Below are positions 4,533 through 22,519 of a stretch of DNA of 33,402 nucleotides, one piece after another; the stretch's first letter is position 1; every line of letters begins with the position of its first letter. A program made the translations under genes and the position numbers. This DNA comes from a virus. Where the stretch lies: positions 1 to 33,402 of the IMG/VR virus record IMGVR_UViG_3300047277_000087; one strand, given 5' to 3'. The notes beneath the pieces were generated by a model. That model was given only the letters and a program-made list of their open reading frames with translations, had not been told where the DNA came from and searched no databases.

Positions 4533-7049
4533 CTAGCCCCCCAGCAAGCGCACTGTATTCACAGCTTTATCATAAAATGAGCCGCCTTTGCTGTCCTTGC
4601 CTTCCGTAAAGGCTTTATTAACATCCGGACCTCGATCTGGCATGGTTTCGCCAGGCTTCCAATAATAAGACTGACCAAACTCGCGTTGAGCGCGTTGCGA
4701 CATTCTTCTTAAGTAGCCTGGTGATAATGATTCTTGCAAGTTCTGTAACACTAAATGATTAAAGGCACTCTTAGTAAACCAGAGTGTGCCTAATGGATTA
4801 ACGCTGTTAGCCAGTCTTAAGGCTTCAGCTCCAACATGCGTCTTTTCGCCCTGCCCTGCTTTGTGTATATTACCGACGGTTAAATCATAGAACTGCTCGG
4901 CTTTGCTGATAGTAGGCCCAGCAAGAGACGCTATGACGCTACTTCCATACTGCGAGTTATTAGCATTTAAGAAATCACCAAACAATCCCAAACCACCCGA
5001 GGCTAATAAGGCTCTTCCAGCGAATGAGGCATTGCCCATTGCTAGTGGATCACGGCCATTAACTATCTCTTTAAGTTGTGTGGCAATCGCTCCATAAATC
5101 AAACCTTGCGCTAGGAATGTTGCAGCATAAGCGGCAGCCGATTGAGGTGACTCCTCTTTTAAGCTCATCGCTCGTTTAAGATTGGCATTTGCGTAAATCA
5201 AGCCAAATGATTTAAATTGCCAGAATGACCTTGCTAGTTCCCCCATTACTGTACCTCTGACTGTTCCTGCGTTCATAAAGGAACGTTCTGCTGCACCAGG
5301 GGTTGATACAGCCATGTTTTGCTCATCGAGGACCAGTGCCATATACTTATCTGCTGATTTTCTTAACACTTTAGGATCAACATCAGGCACAGAAAGTATT
5401 GAATTAACCGTCAATAGTTTGCTTTCACCGTCCACCCATACTTCTGGAACGGCTTGCTTCCATATAGCAAAGTCTGCTTGGTCAATGCCATGCGTAAACA
5501 TCATACGAGCATCAGTCTTATTAATAGAGGCAAGGTCTGCATGAGTATCAACGACATGGGCCACCGCATCCATCATGGTAATGCTAAAAGCTTGACGGTT
5601 GGCTTCGGTAATAAACGGCATACCTGATAAGCGAATAACAGCGCCCCCCATCTTAGAGGCTATGCCATTGGTTATTTGTTCCTGACCATGCCTTAAGACA
5701 GCGCCAGCAAACGCATCTAAACCGATACCTAAACGTCTAGCCGCTCTCCTAGAATCTGCACTCGATAACGCCCGTAAATGCTCCACCATCATCTTAGAGC
5801 GCGAGATATGGTTATATTGCGCTGTCAGGTTCATGGTGTTTAAATCAGTAATCGTTGAGATACCAGACGAACCTAGTGCGATTAGATTGATTGAGCGTAT
5901 GGCATCCATCCATCGAGAGAATGAACGATTACCCACCGCTTCATGAATACCGGCAACCTCTTTAAATAGATTGTCATTCTTAACTTTGTTAGCATTGAGC
6001 TTATCGGGAGATAATCCTAACTTGGCATCTTCACGATAGGCATAGTCATTCCACCAATTAAACTGATGGTTAGGATTAGGCCCTAAGCGCTCAATCATGG
6101 CAATGTCTTTGCTCATGCTATCAATATGACTGATTAGTGTGGCATGGAGTGACTTTTCACCGAACTGCTTGTGATACTCAAGGTAGCTATCTGCATCTTT
6201 AAAATGTAATTGACGACTTTGTGAGTGCGCATTAGCAGCCGATCCTGTGCCTTTATTAGCACCGATCTCGCCATTAAGCTGCCCTTCATAGGCTATAGAC
6301 TCCCAAGCCTTGCCTAAGAAATCATTGAACTGCTGATCACTAAACCCTGATCCATCCTCATTGACATAGCGACTTCTTTCTAACTTCGATGCAATGGCAT
6401 TAATCCAACCATCTTTGCCCGCTTTAAAAGCTAAATATGAAGAGTGGGCTTGTGGGTGCGCCCAATCATCAAGATGCCCTACCTTACCGCCTGCCTCATT
6501 AAAACGCTGACGCTGGCTCTCAAAGGCTTCCGTGAGCTTTTTAGCATAGGCTTTAGCGGGCGCATCACCAGTATCTTGACTATGCAATTCTCGATAGACC
6601 GCTTCCATCTTGGTATTGCCTTGGTCAAAGCCAATCTTAGAGGGTAAGAACGGCTCTGCGACGGCATCAAGTTCGGCTAATATATTATGTCGATTAGTTT
6701 CAATCGATGACTCCACCGACATGGTTTTCTTACCGGCTAATAATTCCCTAAGATTATCACCCATGCGCCCAGGCTGATTTTCCAAAAATGTTTTAATGTT
6801 GTCATGCGCTAGAATGGTTAAGGCAACTCGCTGTTGTTTCTTAGCCGCTTCAATCTTAATACTTTTAGCCGCCTCACTAGCTGCTAACCTAAACTGTTGG
6901 TCTTTACTCATGCCAAGCATAGCTTGACGATCTGTTTTCCAAAGTTGCTTCTGTGATTCAGTAATGCGTTGCTCAATCTTTTGGGCTTCAGCTTGGGTTA
7001 TTTGTCGGCCTATAGCTTGTGAAACTGCGTTAATACAATCCGCTCTCAT
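4533..7049 (-). CDS. Large internal virion / DNA-ejection protein
   Basis: 838 residues from ATG 7049, chosen for GGGGAG upstream and the ATGA overlap with the preceding gene; starts further upstream (7073) lack this. The N-terminal half is helical and charged. The C-terminal half contains alternating Ala/Gly-rich hydrophobic helices (around GALLASGG and GSSVIASLAGPTI). Its place as the last gene of the tail/internal-protein block matches the large ejection proteins of T7-like and BPP-1/epsilon15-like phages. No enzymatic motif was found. Confidence 0.7.
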   Translation of the reverse strand: MRADCINAVSQAIGRQITQAEAQKIEQRITESQKQLWKTDRQAMLGMSKDQQFRLAASEAAKSIKIEAAKKQQRVALTILAHDNIKTFLENQPGRMGDNLRELLAGKKTMSVESSIETNRHNILAELDAVAEPFLPSKIGFDQGNTKMEAVYRELHSQDTGDAPAKAYAKKLTEAFESQRQRFNEAGGKVGHLDDWAHPQAHSSYLAFKAGKDGWINAIASKLERSRYVNEDGSGFSDQQFNDFLGKAWESIAYEGQLNGEIGANKGTGSAANAHSQSRQLHFKDADSYLEYHKQFGEKSLHATLISHIDSMSKDIAMIERLGPNPNHQFNWWNDYAYREDAKLGLSPDKLNANKVKNDNLFKEVAGIHEAVGNRSFSRWMDAIRSINLIALGSSGISTITDLNTMNLTAQYNHISRSKMMVEHLRALSSADSRRAARRLGIGLDAFAGAVLRHGQEQITNGIASKMGGAVIRLSGMPFITEANRQAFSITMMDAVAHVVDTHADLASINKTDARMMFTHGIDQADFAIWKQAVPEVWVDGESKLLTVNSILSVPDVDPKVLRKSADKYMALVLDEQNMAVSTPGAAERSFMNAGTVRGTVMGELARSFWQFKSFGLIYANANLKRAMSLKEESPQSAAAYAATFLAQGLIYGAIATQLKEIVNGRDPLAMGNASFAGRALLASGGLGLFGDFLNANNSQYGSSVIASLAGPTISKAEQFYDLTVGNIHKAGQGEKTHVGAEALRLANSVNPLGTLWFTKSAFNHLVLQNLQESLSPGYLRRMSQRAQREFGQSYYWKPGETMPDRGPDVNKAFTEGKDSKGGSFYDKAVNTVRLLGG

Positions 7050-15417: not shown

Positions 15418-15865
15418 CGCGCACCATTTCAAAGCGTATTACGGGAAATCCGGGCTTGATCTCAATGGTTTCTTCGAACGTAAAACCTATCGTCTTCAGC
15501 CAGCGGATCGTCATTTTGTTTCTGACATCAACTATGTTAGACAATATAGGCCATCGTTTGGACATCATCCGCACGATATGCTTGGTACGACGGGTAAGAT
15601 TAATGACATGACTATCCATTTGATTAGTAACCAGCAACCAAGGATTGCCGGTAATGGAACAGCCGTAGATACAAACTAGAACACCATCAGCAAAGACGGC
15701 AAAGCAGCAATCCTTTTCAGAATTATTGACTGAAGCGACAATACATTCCAACGTGCCTAAGTCCGTTACCGTCTCAATCTCATCGACATCGATCTGGCGC
15801 ATGTTCTCAGCCAGACTAACCATGTCTTCATAGGTTGGGAACCGCTTGGTAACTTTAACCGCCAA
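15389..15865 (-). CDS. GNAT-fold protein, T7 gp13-like
   Basis: 158 residues from TTG 15865, preceded by GAGG at normal spacing; the reading frame stays open to a TTG at 15892 inside the tail-tube gene. The pattern (DMVSLAENMRQIDVDEI, then a strand CCFAVFADGVLVCIYGCS, then a late NKMTIRWLKTIGFTFEE) is that of GNAT acyltransferase folds and of the T7 gp13 family. In phages the family is linked to virion assembly, with no proven enzyme activity. Overlaps tail tube B by 11 nt. Confidence 0.65.
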   Translation of the reverse strand: MAVKVTKRFPTYEDMVSLAENMRQIDVDEIETVTDLGTLECIVASVNNSEKDCCFAVFADGVLVCIYGCSITGNPWLLVTNQMDSHVINLTRRTKHIVRMMSKRWPILSNIVDVRNKMTIRWLKTIGFTFEETIEIKPGFPVIRFEMVRDERTLPDTA

Positions 15866-17915
15866 CAGCCACCTCAGTGGTAATATCCACAATCGTTAAA
15901 GGTAGTGGATCAGATTGTCTAACCGTCACCCGCCCAGATGGATTGAATTGTGAGGTTACAAATAAAGGAATCTCATCGGTGATTAAATCCGGTGCTGTGC
16001 CAGGTGTTTCATAATGCCGTGTCTTGACTGGCGTTAAATGTGCCGTATCCGGTCCGGCACTAAAACCACCCGAATTGTAAACCCGCACCCAAATCTTATT
16101 GATGTTCTTGATTCGAGACTGGCCTAGTGTGGCATCGCCCGTTATAGCGACGGGAGTAGTAGTAAGATCAGCGGTAATCGGCAAGCCTATCTGTGCTTTA
16201 GTCACAGCAAATGGCAGTGTGATAGCCCCACCGGTGACGACTTGTTGAGGCATTACAGCGCCATCACCCAAGATAGCAACAGTCTGTCCTTCCAAATGCC
16301 CCAGACCAGTAATCGTAGTCGTTGATACGCCACTATAGGTTAAGCCGCAATCAACAAAGAAAGCATCACTGGGGCTAGTAAAGAAACGGGTATGTAGCAT
16401 TTCTATGTAACGCTTAGTGACACCATTGATGGTGCGATTAACGATGACATACAGCACATCAGCATTGTTCTCGGAAGTCGTTATGCAGGATTCAAATAGG
16501 CCATTAGTAGTATCGTGCTTGTGCCAGGCTGATACTTGTTGCTCCGGTACATAGGTCAAGCCTAATAAAGCCCCTGCACTATTTATTACCCAGATCACCG
16601 GCACAGGCGCTCGCGATAAAATAAAGTCTGAAATGGTCGTGGTATCAAATAAATGTGGCGCTAATAGGCACAAGTCATTACTCACATAGCCAGAGCTTTG
16701 CCAAGAGTAAGACATCTCACCAATGTGGCCGCCTTGTGCTTGCGGATAGAGAATGTACTTATTGACAAACACCGGTGCAACCGTTGATGTGCCGTTCTGT
16801 GTTTGTGTCTTAATATCTAAGGTTGCTGCCGTTAAAGCACTGCCTGAGTCAGCGCTCACGCTCCATTCGGTTGATGCTGTTAAGACTAGCAAGTCTGATT
16901 GGTTAGGCATTAAATGACGGATCGCATTGGCTTTCTGTGCTGCTATCTTAAACCGCAAAGCATCACTGCCTTGGCTAGGGATAGAGTAAGCAATGTTGTA
17001 GTCAGACGATGACTGCGTGGACCAAATGTTTTGTGGTTGGTTAATCGTACCGGCAAAGAAACGTCTTTGTTGATAATAACAAACCGAGGAAGGATAGTTA
17101 TTAGCTGAAGCAAAAATGGTATCGGTAATCGGTAGTGTCTTGGTTAAGTCGGCAAGAATATTATCATCGGTTAAAGTCAAGCCGGAGGTCTGGCCGATAT
17201 AAGCATAAGTACCACTTGAATACTTGTAGACGTTATAGCGAATAGAGCCAGCTACCGTACTCCACACAATCGTATTGTAGTTGCCTGAGATCGTTAAATC
17301 GTTACTGACGGTATTAGATACTGCCGATGCCGGTGACTCTTCATAACCTAAGCTGTTCAAAGCCGTAATCACATACTTGAAAGTCTGAGTAACACCTGTA
17401 GTCGGCCTTGTAGCAGTGCATGACACCCCTGTTGGTGCGGCCGTTTGTGAAGCAAAAGAAATAGTCGTTAGCGTCCAGTTAAGGTTAGATAAGCGTTTGA
17501 GTTCTTTCGGTGGATAATTAGGATGGACAATCGTAATAACATCGCCTGACTGCACATATTTGATCGTTGATAAATCGCCTTGCGCATAAGTATTGGCGAC
17601 TTCATACGGTACACCGCCACTCATCAAAGTTGCGCCTTGATAATGAAACCTGAAATAGCCTGCTCCCATTTCTATTGCAAACGTCTGCGTGTTAGAGAAC
17701 GAGAACTGAATCAGCCTGGTAAAGTTAGCCGATGTCTTGACTTCATTGACGTACTGAAATCCTGGACGATTAGAGGCTACACCATGAGGCATGATGATGA
17801 AGTTACGACAAGTATCTAAACCCGCCTGCACCTTAGAGATGTCAAGACGCCCAAACAATTCACGGGATATTTCACCACCACTAAAGCTACTCTTTAGAAC
17901 TCTAACATTAGGCAC
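15855..17915 (-). CDS. Tail tubular protein B (nozzle)
   Basis: 686 residues, starting at a GTG that overlaps the previous stop (GTGCCTAA). The beginning, VLKSSFSGGEISRELFGRLD followed by GLDTCRNFIIMPHGVASNRPG, is the typical start of podovirus nozzle proteins (T7 gp12-like). A Thr/Ser-rich beta domain at about 160-270 resembles fibronectin-type insertions. It forms the distal tube of the short tail. Follows tail tubular protein A directly, the standard pair. Confidence 0.85.
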   Translation of the reverse strand: MPNVRVLKSSFSGGEISRELFGRLDISKVQAGLDTCRNFIIMPHGVASNRPGFQYVNEVKTSANFTRLIQFSFSNTQTFAIEMGAGYFRFHYQGATLMSGGVPYEVANTYAQGDLSTIKYVQSGDVITIVHPNYPPKELKRLSNLNWTLTTISFASQTAAPTGVSCTATRPTTGVTQTFKYVITALNSLGYEESPASAVSNTVSNDLTISGNYNTIVWSTVAGSIRYNVYKYSSGTYAYIGQTSGLTLTDDNILADLTKTLPITDTIFASANNYPSSVCYYQQRRFFAGTINQPQNIWSTQSSSDYNIAYSIPSQGSDALRFKIAAQKANAIRHLMPNQSDLLVLTASTEWSVSADSGSALTAATLDIKTQTQNGTSTVAPVFVNKYILYPQAQGGHIGEMSYSWQSSGYVSNDLCLLAPHLFDTTTISDFILSRAPVPVIWVINSAGALLGLTYVPEQQVSAWHKHDTTNGLFESCITTSENNADVLYVIVNRTINGVTKRYIEMLHTRFFTSPSDAFFVDCGLTYSGVSTTTITGLGHLEGQTVAILGDGAVMPQQVVTGGAITLPFAVTKAQIGLPITADLTTTPVAITGDATLGQSRIKNINKIWVRVYNSGGFSAGPDTAHLTPVKTRHYETPGTAPDLITDEIPLFVTSQFNPSGRVTVRQSDPLPLTIVDITTEVAVGG

Positions 17916-18609
17916 GGGCTGCTATCCCCGCTGGTGCTGGAATCGGAAATACTTTTCTATTTTGTGAGTCAGAATCTTTAGCGGCCTTCAAGGCCTGTGC
18001 ATAAGCCTGCATACATTTCATCGAGGCTGATACGCCAATATCACCTTTGAGCATAATACCGGCTAGATTACTCGCTAGTTTCCAAGCAAGAGCATCAATG
18101 AATGAAGGTGGAAATACCGCTGTATTCGTTGTGTAAGCCGCGTATTTTAGCATGGCATTCTGTTGGTTAGCATAGAGTATGATGTTGCCATCCGTATCCG
18201 ATTCAACCGAGTAATCTTGCTGATTACCGTGTGTTGCTAGGCGATTAAGATAACTGGCTTTACTGCCATCACCATAGATACTACTGGTCGTCGCATTGCT
18301 CGGAAAGCCACCGTAGTTGACATCCCCAACCGCTGTCGTGTCATACAAAGCAATCACGTTAATCATGTCGCTAGGTACTTCGTAGCAGCAATCCCAGAGA
18401 CTAGACGGGTTGGTCGTTAGTGCCAGCGTGACTAGCTTACTATTAAAGCCCCAGTTATGCTCATCCAGCACCGCTGATAACGACATTGGATAGAACCGAG
18501 CGCAATAGCCAGCCTGAGCTGATTGGTCCGGTGGGGATATGCTTACTACATTAGCCTCATCGCCAAGACGAGCCAGAGCAAGGTTACAAATATCGACGTC
18601 TGAACTCAT
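17908..18609 (-). CDS. Tail tubular protein A (adaptor)
   Basis: 233 residues with AAGGATAGATAG before the ATG. The N-terminus DICNLALARLGDEANVVSIS and CARFYPMSLSAVLDEHNWGF are hallmark motifs of the T7 gp11-like adaptor family that joins the portal ring to the nozzle. Normal length for the family. Lies immediately before tail tube B and after the DGR, so the retroelement sits inside the tail gene block. Confidence 0.85.
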   Translation of the reverse strand: MSSDVDICNLALARLGDEANVVSISPPDQSAQAGYCARFYPMSLSAVLDEHNWGFNSKLVTLALTTNPSSLWDCCYEVPSDMINVIALYDTTAVGDVNYGGFPSNATTSSIYGDGSKASYLNRLATHGNQQDYSVESDTDGNIILYANQQNAMLKYAAYTTNTAVFPPSFIDALAWKLASNLAGIMLKGDIGVSASMKCMQAYAQALKAAKDSDSQNRKVFPIPAPAGIAARA

Positions 18610-18622
18610 CTATCTATCCTTT

Positions 18623-18862
18623 TTAAAGTGCTAGTAACTCATCTTTGGTAAAGCCAAATCTTTCGATAGTGGCTAAATCTTCAACGTCTATCCAGATAGG
18701 CTCTAATACTTCACCGGCATACTCAGGTTGGTTGTAGTCATCAGGATATGCTTGGCTGTCTTGTTTGTGACTCATTGACCCTTTTAATAAGGCAACAAAC
18801 TCACCATAAGAAGGGGTGCCTTTTAGTGCGTCTAAATCTTCTCGTGTATTAATAATATTCAT
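18623..18862 (-). CDS. Small protein between RT and tail tube genes
   Basis: 79 residues from ATG 18862 (GGATAACAAAT upstream), overlapping the reverse transcriptase by 14 nt. The longer form starting at 18919 would lie mostly inside the RT gene. Sequence features: acidic, LDALKGTPSYGEFVALLKGS, then Asp/Tyr-rich, then EDLATIERFGFTKDELLAL. I recall similar small proteins near tail genes of related phages but know no function; a tail assembly accessory role is possible. Confidence 0.65.
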   Translation of the reverse strand: MNIINTREDLDALKGTPSYGEFVALLKGSMSHKQDSQAYPDDYNQPEYAGEVLEPIWIDVEDLATIERFGFTKDELLAL

Positions 18863-19829
18863 ATTTGTTATCCAGCCAGTTAAATAAATTGTGAGTATCA
18901 GCCCAACTTGCATGACCACGCCATGAAGCTAAGAATTTGGTAAGGTTTAAAAACTCATGGTGTTCTATAAAATGCTTAATCTTATGCTTTGCTCGTAATA
19001 CCGAGTCCTTTCTTATTAGCTTATGCGTTGCCCAGATTCGATACCCTAAAAAGTTAATCCCTCTTTTGACACTAGCACACTGCCATTTACTGATAGTGAG
19101 CTTTAACTTTTCCTGAGAAAACTGCTTAATCTTTTCAAAGTCCTGACGTAATTGTTCAGGATCGTTACCAAGAATAACAACGTCATCCATGTATCTTGCC
19201 CATCGTCTATGCTTTAGCTCATGGTGGATAAAGTGGTCAAGCTGTGAGCCATAGATATTGGCAAATAACTGACTGGTTAAGCTACCTATGGGAATACCGA
19301 CATTGCCAGGTATAACCAGTTGCTTAATAATCTTCATTGTCTTTTCACAAGCAATCTTTCGCTCTATCATAGCCAGTAATAACGTATGATCCACACTAGG
19401 GAAAAACTTTGTGTAATCTGTCTTAAGGTAATACATTGGCTTGGGGTCTTTTCTTAACTCTGACTGAAGATAACGAACGCCACCATGCGTACCTTTTCCG
19501 ACTCTGCAAGCATAAGTATTAGGTAAAAACATGGCGTCAAAAATATCACCAATGACAGCCATTAAAGCATGTTGAGCCAATCTATCTTTGAACTCTAAGG
19601 CTGATATAAGTCGCTTCTTTGGTTCAAACACATAGAACTGTTTATAGCTACCGACTTGATAGCTACCGTCTAACAGCTCTTGCCCTAACTTGATTAAGTT
19701 AATCGATTTATATTCTTTAAACTCAAGATACCCAAAGCTCATCCGTTTTGCACAAGCTGTTCTATTAAACGCTAACTGCATGTTTTCAGGACTGGCTATA
19801 CGTTCTATCAAGTTTCTATGCGTTTTCAA
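18849..19829 (-). CDS. brt: DGR reverse transcriptase (Brt-like)
   Basis: 326 residues. It makes mutagenic cDNA from the template RNA. Visible RT motifs are KTDYTKFFPSVD (motif A Asp), GIPIGSLTSQLFANIYG (the DGR/group II hallmark), ARYMDDVVILG (catalytic YMDD) and GINFLGYRIW. Length and sequence closely follow Bordetella phage BPP-1 Brt (328 residues as I recall). Start chosen at TTG 19829 because AGGG lies 8 bases upstream and the product then begins KTHRNLIERI, matching the Brt N-terminus; a TTG at 19847 is also open. A non-ATG start fits low expression. Confidence 0.95.
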   Translation of the reverse strand: MKTHRNLIERIASPENMQLAFNRTACAKRMSFGYLEFKEYKSINLIKLGQELLDGSYQVGSYKQFYVFEPKKRLISALEFKDRLAQHALMAVIGDIFDAMFLPNTYACRVGKGTHGGVRYLQSELRKDPKPMYYLKTDYTKFFPSVDHTLLLAMIERKIACEKTMKIIKQLVIPGNVGIPIGSLTSQLFANIYGSQLDHFIHHELKHRRWARYMDDVVILGNDPEQLRQDFEKIKQFSQEKLKLTISKWQCASVKRGINFLGYRIWATHKLIRKDSVLRAKHKIKHFIEHHEFLNLTKFLASWRGHASWADTHNLFNWLDNKYEYY

Positions 19830-19975
19830 GTCAGTAGCCCTGTTCAAGCGATATTACTAAGGGCATCCTGAACCGTGAAAAGTATTTGCCGAAGCAGGAC
19901 ACAATGGCTGACCACATACATAGTGATCGGCTTGCAATGCCGTAGCGATTGCAAAGCGTAGGAAATAATGCCGTC
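19830..19975 (-). ncRNA. DGR template-RNA 3' spacer between TR and RT
   Basis: 146 bases between the 3' end of TR and the RT start. In BPP-1 a spacer of similar length and position is part of the structured template RNA, contacts Avd-RT and primes cDNA synthesis. The stretch GTGTCCTGCTTCGGC (minus strand, about 19884-19898) looks to me like a segment of the BPP-1 spacer, recalled from memory only. The reading frame that crosses TR and this spacer is not a credible protein. Confidence 0.65.
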
Positions 19976-20088
19976 ACGACACCGCGAGAACCGATGTTGT
20001 TGTTCGAGTTCGTAGGCGAGTTGTTCCAGTTCGAGTAACGAGAACCTGCGTTCACTCCATTACTCCAGTTACCTCCAAAGTTCACGGT
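19976..20088 (-). repeat. DGR template repeat (TR)
   Basis: On the minus strand TR begins 3-4 nt after the avd stop and ends 146 nt before the RT. It aligns without gaps to VR at an offset of 539 bp. From 19976 to 20082 there are 13 mismatches, all at minus-strand adenines (plus-strand T at 20000, 20009, 20010, 20013, 20021, 20022, 20030, 20031, 20051, 20060, 20061, 20081, 20082); a further A to G at 20088 marks the fuzzy 5' edge. It carries eleven AAY codons where the target has varied residues. The last 24 bases of the 3' end are identical to VR. Confidence 0.95.
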
Positions 20089-20091
20089 GTT

Positions 20092-20466
20092 TTACCCATT
20101 CTGCCCCTTACGCTTAGTAATCCATGACCCTAGCATAGACCCAACCTCCGCAAGCATGATTAAGACCACTTGGTGCTGGTGAGATGTTATGCCGCGTGTA
20201 CTCGGTATTACTAAGAAACGTAACCAAAACCGCAGCTGCGCTAATCCTGCATCTGCTTCATATATTTTACTGATTTGATTACTCTTACCGGCTATATAAA
20301 ATAACTCAGCTTGGTTAAACAAAGTCTGTAAAAACATATCCCTTACTACCCCATGCTTTCTCGGTAACGATTGCGCAATGGGGTATAAATAATGAATCAC
20401 CGTTTCATACTTCTCGATGATCGCCATCTGGCTATAATTAACAACCACTTGTTGTATAGGTTGCAT
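20092..20466 (-). CDS. avd: DGR accessory variability determinant
   Basis: 124 residues, close to BPP-1 Avd (128 as I recall). Helical four-helix-bundle pattern with IEKYETVIHYLYPIAQSLPR, then KHGVVRDMFLQTLFNQAELF, then GLAQLRFWLRFLV, and a basic tail. Avd forms a pentameric, positively charged barrel that binds the RT and template RNA and is needed for mutagenic retrohoming. It lies between VR and TR in the same order as in BPP-1. The ribosome-binding site is weak, and the post-mtd hairpin sits just before its start. Confidence 0.93.
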   Translation of the reverse strand: MQPIQQVVVNYSQMAIIEKYETVIHYLYPIAQSLPRKHGVVRDMFLQTLFNQAELFYIAGKSNQISKIYEADAGLAQLRFWLRFLVIPSTRGITSHQHQVVLIMLAEVGSMLGSWITKRKGQNG

Positions 20467-20476
20467 CTTAAAGGCC

Positions 20477-20492
20477 AGTGGCTTTCGCCACT
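20477..20492 (-). other. GAAA-loop hairpin after mtd (DGR target-recognition element)
   Basis: On the minus strand AGTGGC-GAAA-GCCACT begins at the base after the mtd TAA stop, 22 bases beyond the end of VR. A hairpin/cruciform with a GAAA loop in the same place is required for efficient target recognition in BPP-1. Here the stem is 6 bp and perfect. It also occupies the mtd-avd junction, so it could affect avd translation. Confidence 0.75.
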
Positions 20493-21674
20493 TTAATCAA
20501 GTAACAGGTGGTCAACGACACCGCGAGAACCGATGTTGGTGTTCGAGACCGCAGGCGAGAAGTTCCAGGCCGAGTAACGAGAACCTGCGCTCACTCCAAA
20601 ACTCCAGTTACCTCCAAAGAACACGGCATTACAAAGCTGATAAGTAGAGCCTCTGCCTGTGGTATTAGCTGTGAATGCGGCCGTTCCAGCACCACCACCA
20701 AAGTCTTTTCCCCAAACATCCATTACGCCTGTAGACTGCATAACACCCCATTTTGAGGTGTAAGCAGCATTAAGAATGGTGGATACTTGATCTGTACCGA
20801 TAGCACTGGCTTCTGTTGTGCCGAAAGCTAGGGCTGCGTATTCTTGATAGCTGGCAGAGCGTTTACCATTAGCCGCTAAGACCTCATTAGCTTCCCACCA
20901 AGTTAGCGTGGTATAAGTTGTTGAACCATTACCGCCAAACTTAGTTGGTACTTTAGGAGGACTAGCGCCATCAGCAATAGTGACGTTATATTTAGACGTG
21001 CCGTTAGTATCAGGATCGGTATTTAATAGGTAAATATCAGCCCAGAAATTATCAGCAACTAACGTCATACCGCGTGGGTCTTGACAAGCTGGTTTAAACT
21101 TTAAATCCCATAATGAATAAGCATTGATATAAGGCGTAGTATTACCACCTGATCGAGCAGCTGCATTACCACCGGGAGCGTAATGAAAGCCACCAATCTT
21201 ACGAGCATTAGCGGTAGGTGGCGTAGTGAAGTTATTAGTACAGGTTATTGTGCCAGCTGTTTCTGCCCATATCGCATAGTCAGTACCTGTTACCGCTGAT
21301 GGCATTACCACCACTGTACCCGATGCAAATGTTAAACAAGTGCCATTAACATCAATGTACATTTGTGTTTGCGTTGATACTGCAAAGGCCGCTGTTACTG
21401 TAAAAGCTACAGCGGTTGGTGCATCCTTTCTAAATTCACCTCTAACGAATGAAGCGGTTGTGTTGCCTGTGAAAGTAGGTGAGGCAGTAGGAGCAAACAC
21501 GCCAGCAGGAAAATTATTTAAATCTTGACGTAGTAGCGGAAAGCCACCTGGTGTCGCGCCATCATGGACGACTACTGTCTTTTTATCAGTATCAATGGTT
21601 ATTTCACGCAATGCGCCCGTAAATCCTGCATGTTGAGCAGTAGTGCCGCCCCTGCGTTGTATTTGGTCAGCCAT
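20493..21674 (-). CDS. mtd: Major tropism determinant: variable receptor-binding protein
   Basis: 393 residues with GGAG ten bases before the ATG. The N-terminus (RRGGTTAQHAGFTGALREIT, then TVVVHDGATPGGFPL) is the Mtd N-terminal domain. The middle has GGFHYAPGGNAA and DPRGMTLVADNFWADIYLL. The C-terminal ~180 residues form the C-type-lectin-like fold, ending in the VR and DHLLLD. In BPP-1 this trimeric protein sits on the tail fibres and its VR residues select the host receptor. Residues differing from the template are F352, F359, S362, A369, F372, A375, V376 and T379. Confidence 0.95.
   Translation of the reverse strand: MADQIQRRGGTTAQHAGFTGALREITIDTDKKTVVVHDGATPGGFPLLRQDLNNFPAGVFAPTASPTFTGNTTASFVRGEFRKDAPTAVAFTVTAAFAVSTQTQMYIDVNGTCLTFASGTVVVMPSAVTGTDYAIWAETAGTITCTNNFTTPPTANARKIGGFHYAPGGNAAARSGGNTTPYINAYSLWDLKFKPACQDPRGMTLVADNFWADIYLLNTDPDTNGTSKYNVTIADGASPPKVPTKFGGNGSTTYTTLTWWEANEVLAANGKRSASYQEYAALAFGTTEASAIGTDQVSTILNAAYTSKWGVMQSTGVMDVWGKDFGGGAGTAAFTANTTGRGSTYQLCNAVFFGGNWSFGVSAGSRYSAWNFSPAVSNTNIGSRGVVDHLLLD
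20515..20626 (-). repeat. DGR variable repeat (VR) with IMH end
   Basis: 112 bp inside the last 45 codons of mtd. It is identical to TR except at template adenines, where C, G and T all appear (A to T six times, A to G five, A to C two on the coding strand). Bases 20515-20538 (24 bp, GC-rich) are identical to the TR end and correspond to the initiation-of-mutagenic-homology (IMH) region. Homology stops sharply at 20515. Confidence 0.95.
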
Positions 21675-21691
21675 AGTATATAAACTCCAGG

Positions 21692-22519
21692 TTAAGGCAC
21701 AGTGCCAAAGTTAAATGATGCGGTAGCGTCTGTTGATAAGCTAACCCATCGAATTAATGTTTCATTAGTAAAAACATCTTGTGTGATATTGCCCATATCC
21801 CAACCACCACCAACATAAATTGAAGTAAATGTTGTCATGCGACTGGCTGGGAAATAAGCATCTATATAGGTTGCTAATGCAGATTTAGCAGGCGCTACAG
21901 CAATAAGTGCTGAATTAGCAGCGGCTGTTGCTGATGCTGAAGAGGCTGCACTTGCTAACAAACTATTGGTAGCGCTTATAGATGATGATGTGGCTGAATT
22001 GCTTGCTTGATAGGCATATGTTGCTGAATCGGAAGCTGAACTAGCCGAGGCATTGGCAGATACTTCTGCTTGTGCTATGTAATCATCTATGTTTTGACCA
22101 GTGGTTCCTATTGATGAGATTGGTAACTTAAAGGTTCTGCTTAATTCTTCTGCTACTTGCTGAACCTGAATAACTATCCTATCCAAGGCGTTATTAATCG
22201 ACTCTGGATAAAAACCACCAGAGTTAGTTAAAGCCAGTGTTTGCGTATTAGTGACTTGCGATGTCAGGGTAATATATGTGCCGGTAGCCGGTGCAAATAA
22301 TAAAGTGACTGATCCGCCTGGTGAAGTGTTCTGATCTGCATTAAGCGTGACCGTGTAATTAGTAGATAGTACCAATACCGATTCAACATCTAGCGCATCA
22401 AGATAGGTTACTAAAATATCAGTAGCGGTAAAGACTTTGAACGTAAACGGAAATACCGTTGTAACTCCATTGCCTTGACTGGGTCCTGCTTTACGAAGGG
22501 TGGTGTTTTGTATGGTCAT
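21692..22519 (-). CDS. Tail fibre / virion-attachment adaptor
   Basis: 275 residues. The first ~130 (TTLRKAGPSQGNGVTTVFPF, then DILVTYLD, then LLFAPATGTYITLTSQV) form the beta-rich N-terminal domain common to podovirus tail fibres and spikes that docks on the tail. A coiled-coil-like Ala/Ser-rich region (about 145-215) and a short beta C-terminus follow. Lying directly before mtd, it is the likely fibre that carries Mtd, as the BPP-1 fibre does. AGGTTAAATAAC precedes the ATG. Confidence 0.75.
   Translation of the reverse strand: MTIQNTTLRKAGPSQGNGVTTVFPFTFKVFTATDILVTYLDALDVESVLVLSTNYTVTLNADQNTSPGGSVTLLFAPATGTYITLTSQVTNTQTLALTNSGGFYPESINNALDRIVIQVQQVAEELSRTFKLPISSIGTTGQNIDDYIAQAEVSANASASSASDSATYAYQASNSATSSSISATNSLLASAASSASATAAANSALIAVAPAKSALATYIDAYFPASRMTTFTSIYVGGGWDMGNITQDVFTNETLIRWVSLSTDATASFNFGTVP

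Follow-up and report, generated by a model that had tools for sequence, protein, structure and literature searches.

Closest described systems

A diversity-generating retroelement (DGR) is a device that rewrites the tip of a tail protein at chosen positions and so puts new host receptors to the trial; the Mtd-type family was first described in Bordetella phage BPP-1. In BPP-1 (NC_005357), the order mtd-avd-template repeat (TR)-brt is combined with an Mtd-family target that carries a lectin-fold variable repeat (VR) near its C-terminus, a bAvd protein, a reverse transcriptase (RT) with a YMDD motif, an RF03022 RNA between TR and RT, and a GAAA-loop hairpin at the mtd stop. Retrohoming in BPP-1 needs this hairpin, and published phage hairpins have a stem of 7–10 bp and a 4-nt GRNA loop (PMC3240598); misincorporation of G by the BPP-1 enzyme (bRT) is raised at NAC and almost none is seen at NAG (PMC12875486). 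Viral DGRs surveyed by Roux et al. 2021 (PMC8144416) have adenine-facing mismatches and C-type-lectin-fold tail targets, as does the element analysed here.

Anatomy of the cassette

The window, i.e. the whole stretch of DNA analysed, has 33,402 bases at 44% G+C and constitutes one IMG/VR virus record. Genes for SSB, integrase, lysozyme, a T7 gp14-like internal protein, tail, head and terminase were found, and the phage is therefore most likely temperate and podovirus-like. With a probability of roughly 0.96, judged from the sequence, it carries a complete BPP-1-type DGR, composed as follows.

21692-22519, minus strand: tail-fibre-like gene that precedes mtd
20493..21674, minus strand: mtd, target gene, major tropism determinant-like receptor-binding tail protein, 393 aa
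20515..20626, minus strand: VR, variable repeat (mtd codons 350-387), 88% identity to TR
20477..20492, minus strand: hairpin/cruciform AGTGGC-GAAA-GCCACT, seen in the sequence
20092..20466, minus strand: avd, accessory variability determinant, 124 aa (Pfam and PHROG)
19976..20087, minus strand: TR, template repeat with 29 adenines (alignment to VR)
19830..19957, minus strand: Phage_DGR RNA element RF03022 in the TR-RT spacer (Rfam)
18849..19829, minus strand: DGR reverse transcriptase, about 326 aa from TTG at 19829 (RVT_1, Brt, 8ub7)

The order on the minus strand, mtd with VR near its 3' end followed by avd, TR and RT, agrees in genes and strands with BPP-1, as a preliminary description of this DNA had stated. 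Its claim of a complete Mtd-type DGR also held, since every defining part was matched independently by profiles, a structure database and an RNA family; the parts it listed are correct, and it had overlooked the Rfam RNA (19830-19957) and the hairpin (20477-20492). Downstream of RT lie a small gene and then tail genes at 17908-18609 and 15855-17915, of tail tubular type, whereas small genes and an endolysin follow the BPP-1 cassette. When 23 kb of the window were compared with annotated phages by megablast, there were zero matches, so a close cultured relative is absent from that collection. No tRNA that might hint at an integration site or host was found in the whole window, and no convincing promoters or terminators were found in the DGR region, where counts were lower than in shuffled sequences.

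The target protein matched Pfam Mtd_N (PF18454) and mtd_2nd (PF21916), the accessions used for assignment to the Mtd family, as well as a PHROG tail protein (7e-111) and PDB entries 1yu0-1yu4 and 2iou (E down to 3e-112), including the five solved Mtd variants of BPP-1; identity to BPP-1 Mtd is 50% over the full length. VR thus lies in the coding sequence of a homologue of solved lectin-fold Mtd structures. The BPP-1 TR adenine codons, which include 344, 346, 347, 348, 350, 357, 359, 360, 364, 366, 368 and 369, coincide at an offset of 12 (from the PDB alignment) with most of the TR adenine codons of the window, and the same lectin-fold surface is therefore targeted as in BPP-1. Two T7 records (LR745707 and LR745708) also matched Mtd; LR745708 is annotated as carrying a T7-BPP-1 Mtd fusion tail fibre and is therefore no natural relative. 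In the relatives, Mtd residues 73-393 are conserved and the N-terminal part is longer or replaced (L004, L005, L006; L010, L011), which suggests, from the sequence comparison, modular exchange of a virion-anchoring part.

Over its length RT shares 57% identity with BPP-1 Brt, and it matched Pfam RVT_1 (3e-21) and a solved RT of the PDB 8ub7 series (3e-125). The catalytic YMDD, reported earlier as intact, was confirmed by alignment, i.e. the active-site motif is not disrupted, and the SQ motif IGSLTSQ is conserved. The frame is open from 19847, and relatives likewise keep the upstream frame open; translation probably begins with the TTG at 19829 rather than at 19847, because this TTG aligns with the Brt start. 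Avd, which adjoins TR, matched Pfam bAvd (PF22296, 3e-28) and PHROG Avd (1e-21). The spacer RNA matched the full RF03022 model (1-127) with 95.2 bits at a gathering score of 50; the BPP-1 RNA scores 104.7 bits.

The hairpin stands directly 3' of the mtd stop, 22 nt past VR. Its 6-bp stem is shorter than the published 7–10 bp and the 8 bp of BPP-1; among the relatives identified, though, stems of 6 bp are the most frequent. When 73 TR/VR pairs from relatives were searched for a stem of at least 5 bp with any 4-nt loop in the 90 nt that follow VR, 61 of the 73 had a hairpin, with a GAAA loop in 42 and GCAA in four, and the GRNA consensus fitted 57 of the 61; any 4-nt loop was accepted, so this agreement was not imposed by the search.

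Template and variable repeats

Realignment of TR (19976-20087) with VR (20515-20626) was gapless over 112 nt (134 nt are annotated in BPP-1) with 13 mismatches, all 13 at a template adenine (A>T seven, A>G four, A>C two), as described before. The intervals given then (19976-20088 and 20515-20627) are otherwise correct and one base too long at the 5' end, where 20088/20627 read A/G and a non-adenine mismatch follows one base further out. Under random placement, the probability that all 13 differences among 112 positions coincide with the 29 adenines is 2e-9 (hypergeometric), which bears out the earlier statement that random divergence cannot give the pattern. Eight Mtd codons are altered (352, 359, 362, 369, 372, 375, 376 and 379), in agreement with the eight lectin-fold residues reported. 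All changes do lie at codon position 1 or 2, as had been claimed, but this carries little weight (P = 0.15, not significant alone) because only three TR adenines are at codon position 3. The last 24 nt of the two repeats are identical (CAACATCGGTTCTCGCGGTGTCGT) and divergence sets in beyond, as would suit an IMH in VR; the distal part of this putative IMH is fully diverged from TR, unlike that of BPP-1, and the BPP-1 (GC)14 element lacks an exact counterpart.

Variation among relatives

RT relatives were found in viral contigs (10 near, at least 132 wider) and in seven cellular genomes (Akkermansiaceae, Gallionellales, Pandoraea, Bordetella, Castellaniella, Burkholderiales and Herbaspirillum). 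The IMG/VR relatives L003-L012 and L107-L114 have the same cassette where it is intact, with RT 79–97% identical; two contigs occur under two labels each (L114 = L012, L113 = L011). Of the 1097 differences counted in 73 non-redundant TR/VR pairs from relatives, 1015 were at template adenines. The adenine-only pattern recurs in relatives, and between close sisters VR has diverged much more strongly than other parts of Mtd: amino acid identity is 62% in VR and 96% outside it for L114, and 70% and 93% for L107. The pair of L074 (2168-2288/2720-2840), unlike nearly all others, has 10 of 19 differences off template adenines, and that of L052 (2189-2307/2725-2843) has G in VR at 18 of 19 differences, an unusually one-sided spectrum.

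Over 2,274 nt, only three sites distinguish the near-identical sister contigs L006 and L007, and two of them are adjacent template-adenine positions in VR (P ~5e-4 for two of three on 29 adenine sites, with sites treated as independent); these differences suggest that retrohoming in this phage group is recent or still going on.

In 71 pairs taken as they stand, with VR selection and sequence kinship still in the figures, the share of A>C was 26% at the second A of AAC and 13% at the first (whole-spectrum P = 3e-6), and none of the 24 changes at an A before G was A>C. Both values agree with the bias measured for bRT. At the first A of AAC, these pairs did not show the increase in A>T that would be expected (30% versus 32%).

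Unlike the window, some of these relatives have lost the cassette partly or wholly. In L114/L012, a 41.8-kb contig, mtd (93% identical) and the hairpin are kept and avd, TR and RT are deleted except for the last 56 RT residues, the deletion starting just past the post-VR hairpin (L012 3983-4168, L114 5179-5364). L113/L011 has a different deletion, which joins avd codon 19 to RT codon 196 and leaves mtd in place (L011 3942-4411). The downstream gene directly follows the mtd homologue, with no DGR cassette, in L110 (~2597-2611) and L115 (~4966-4975). An RT scan with working controls found no RT domain elsewhere in L115, L110 or L114; a bAvd scan of the cassette-free contigs gave no match, but gave none in the control genomes either. 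The VR of L110 has a two-residue insertion relative to other VRs.

The TR of L003 (3761-3872) is adenine-poor: it lacks 20 of the 29 adenines of the window TR, 15 of them through A>G. Against these 20 adenine changes stand three others, the flanks are 97–98% identical, and the L003 VR retains adenines at several positions where its TR has lost them. This TR is the product of either template overwriting or misassembly, and the deletions and the L003 TR together may reflect either a disarming of the element in nature or errors of assembly. Tentatively, and on the unlikely side, DGRs of this group may have been disarmed repeatedly, by avd-TR-RT deletion, after which mtd would encode a frozen receptor binder (L114/L012, L113/L011), and by adenine-directed overwriting of TR (L003). 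A literature search of narrow scope found no description of DGR loss or of TR self-mutagenesis.

Proposed mechanism and alternatives

By analogy with BPP-1, TR-containing RNA, extended into the structured spacer before RT, would be bound by RT and Avd and copied to cDNA with errors opposite adenines. The cDNA would then replace the VR in the 3' part of mtd, with the 3' VR (IMH) sequence and the hairpin beyond the stop as guides, and TR would stay unchanged because it has no hairpin and its 3' end has diverged from that of VR. The expected outcome is a phage population whose tail tips differ in their lectin-fold surfaces for binding. The biochemical steps, the protection of TR and the changed choice of host receptor are all carried over from BPP-1.

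Other readings were weighed against an element that is probably active. The cassette might be intact in sequence yet inactive, with VR as the frozen product of past retrohoming; its loss in several ways in close relatives, in part (L114/L012, L113/L011) or entirely (L110, L115), means that its maintenance is not obligatory. This is improbable, however, as all genes are open and conserved, the DGR RNA and hairpin are intact, and VR has no non-adenine change relative to TR, where long inactivity would collect some: the VRs of the cassette-deleted L011 and L012 have two and three, respectively, against the window TR, at least one of which is a polymorphism also present in an intact TR (L004). A little less probable still is that metagenome assembly mixed TR and VR variants and the 13 differences are the consensus of a mixed population rather than one genome. 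The source is an IMG/VR contig and 112-nt repeats can be confused in short-read assembly, but the window TR is 97–98% identical to the TRs of the independent contigs L004-L009 and is therefore correctly placed, and a mixture inside VR would itself imply DGR activity. That the repeats are an ordinary duplication, diverged by chance or selection alone, can practically be dismissed: its sole support is that two similar copies exist, and against it stand the adenine restriction (P = 2e-9), the same pattern in the 73 pairs from relatives, and the avd, RT and DGR RNA that adjoin the repeats.

Meaning for the family

The window DGR is thus an ordinary element of the BPP-1 type and, judged by its sequence, probably active; the window itself holds no new mechanism, and this kind of element is already well known from BPP-1. 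With it, the BPP-1-type DGRs of environmental phages gain a well-preserved member that has close sisters. In the sister set, intact, partly deleted and cassette-free versions of one mtd locus can be compared, and natural substitution spectra can be set against the recently measured context bias of the BPP-1 RT. L003, if real and not misassembled, would show that a DGR in nature can mutate, and so exhaust, its own template.
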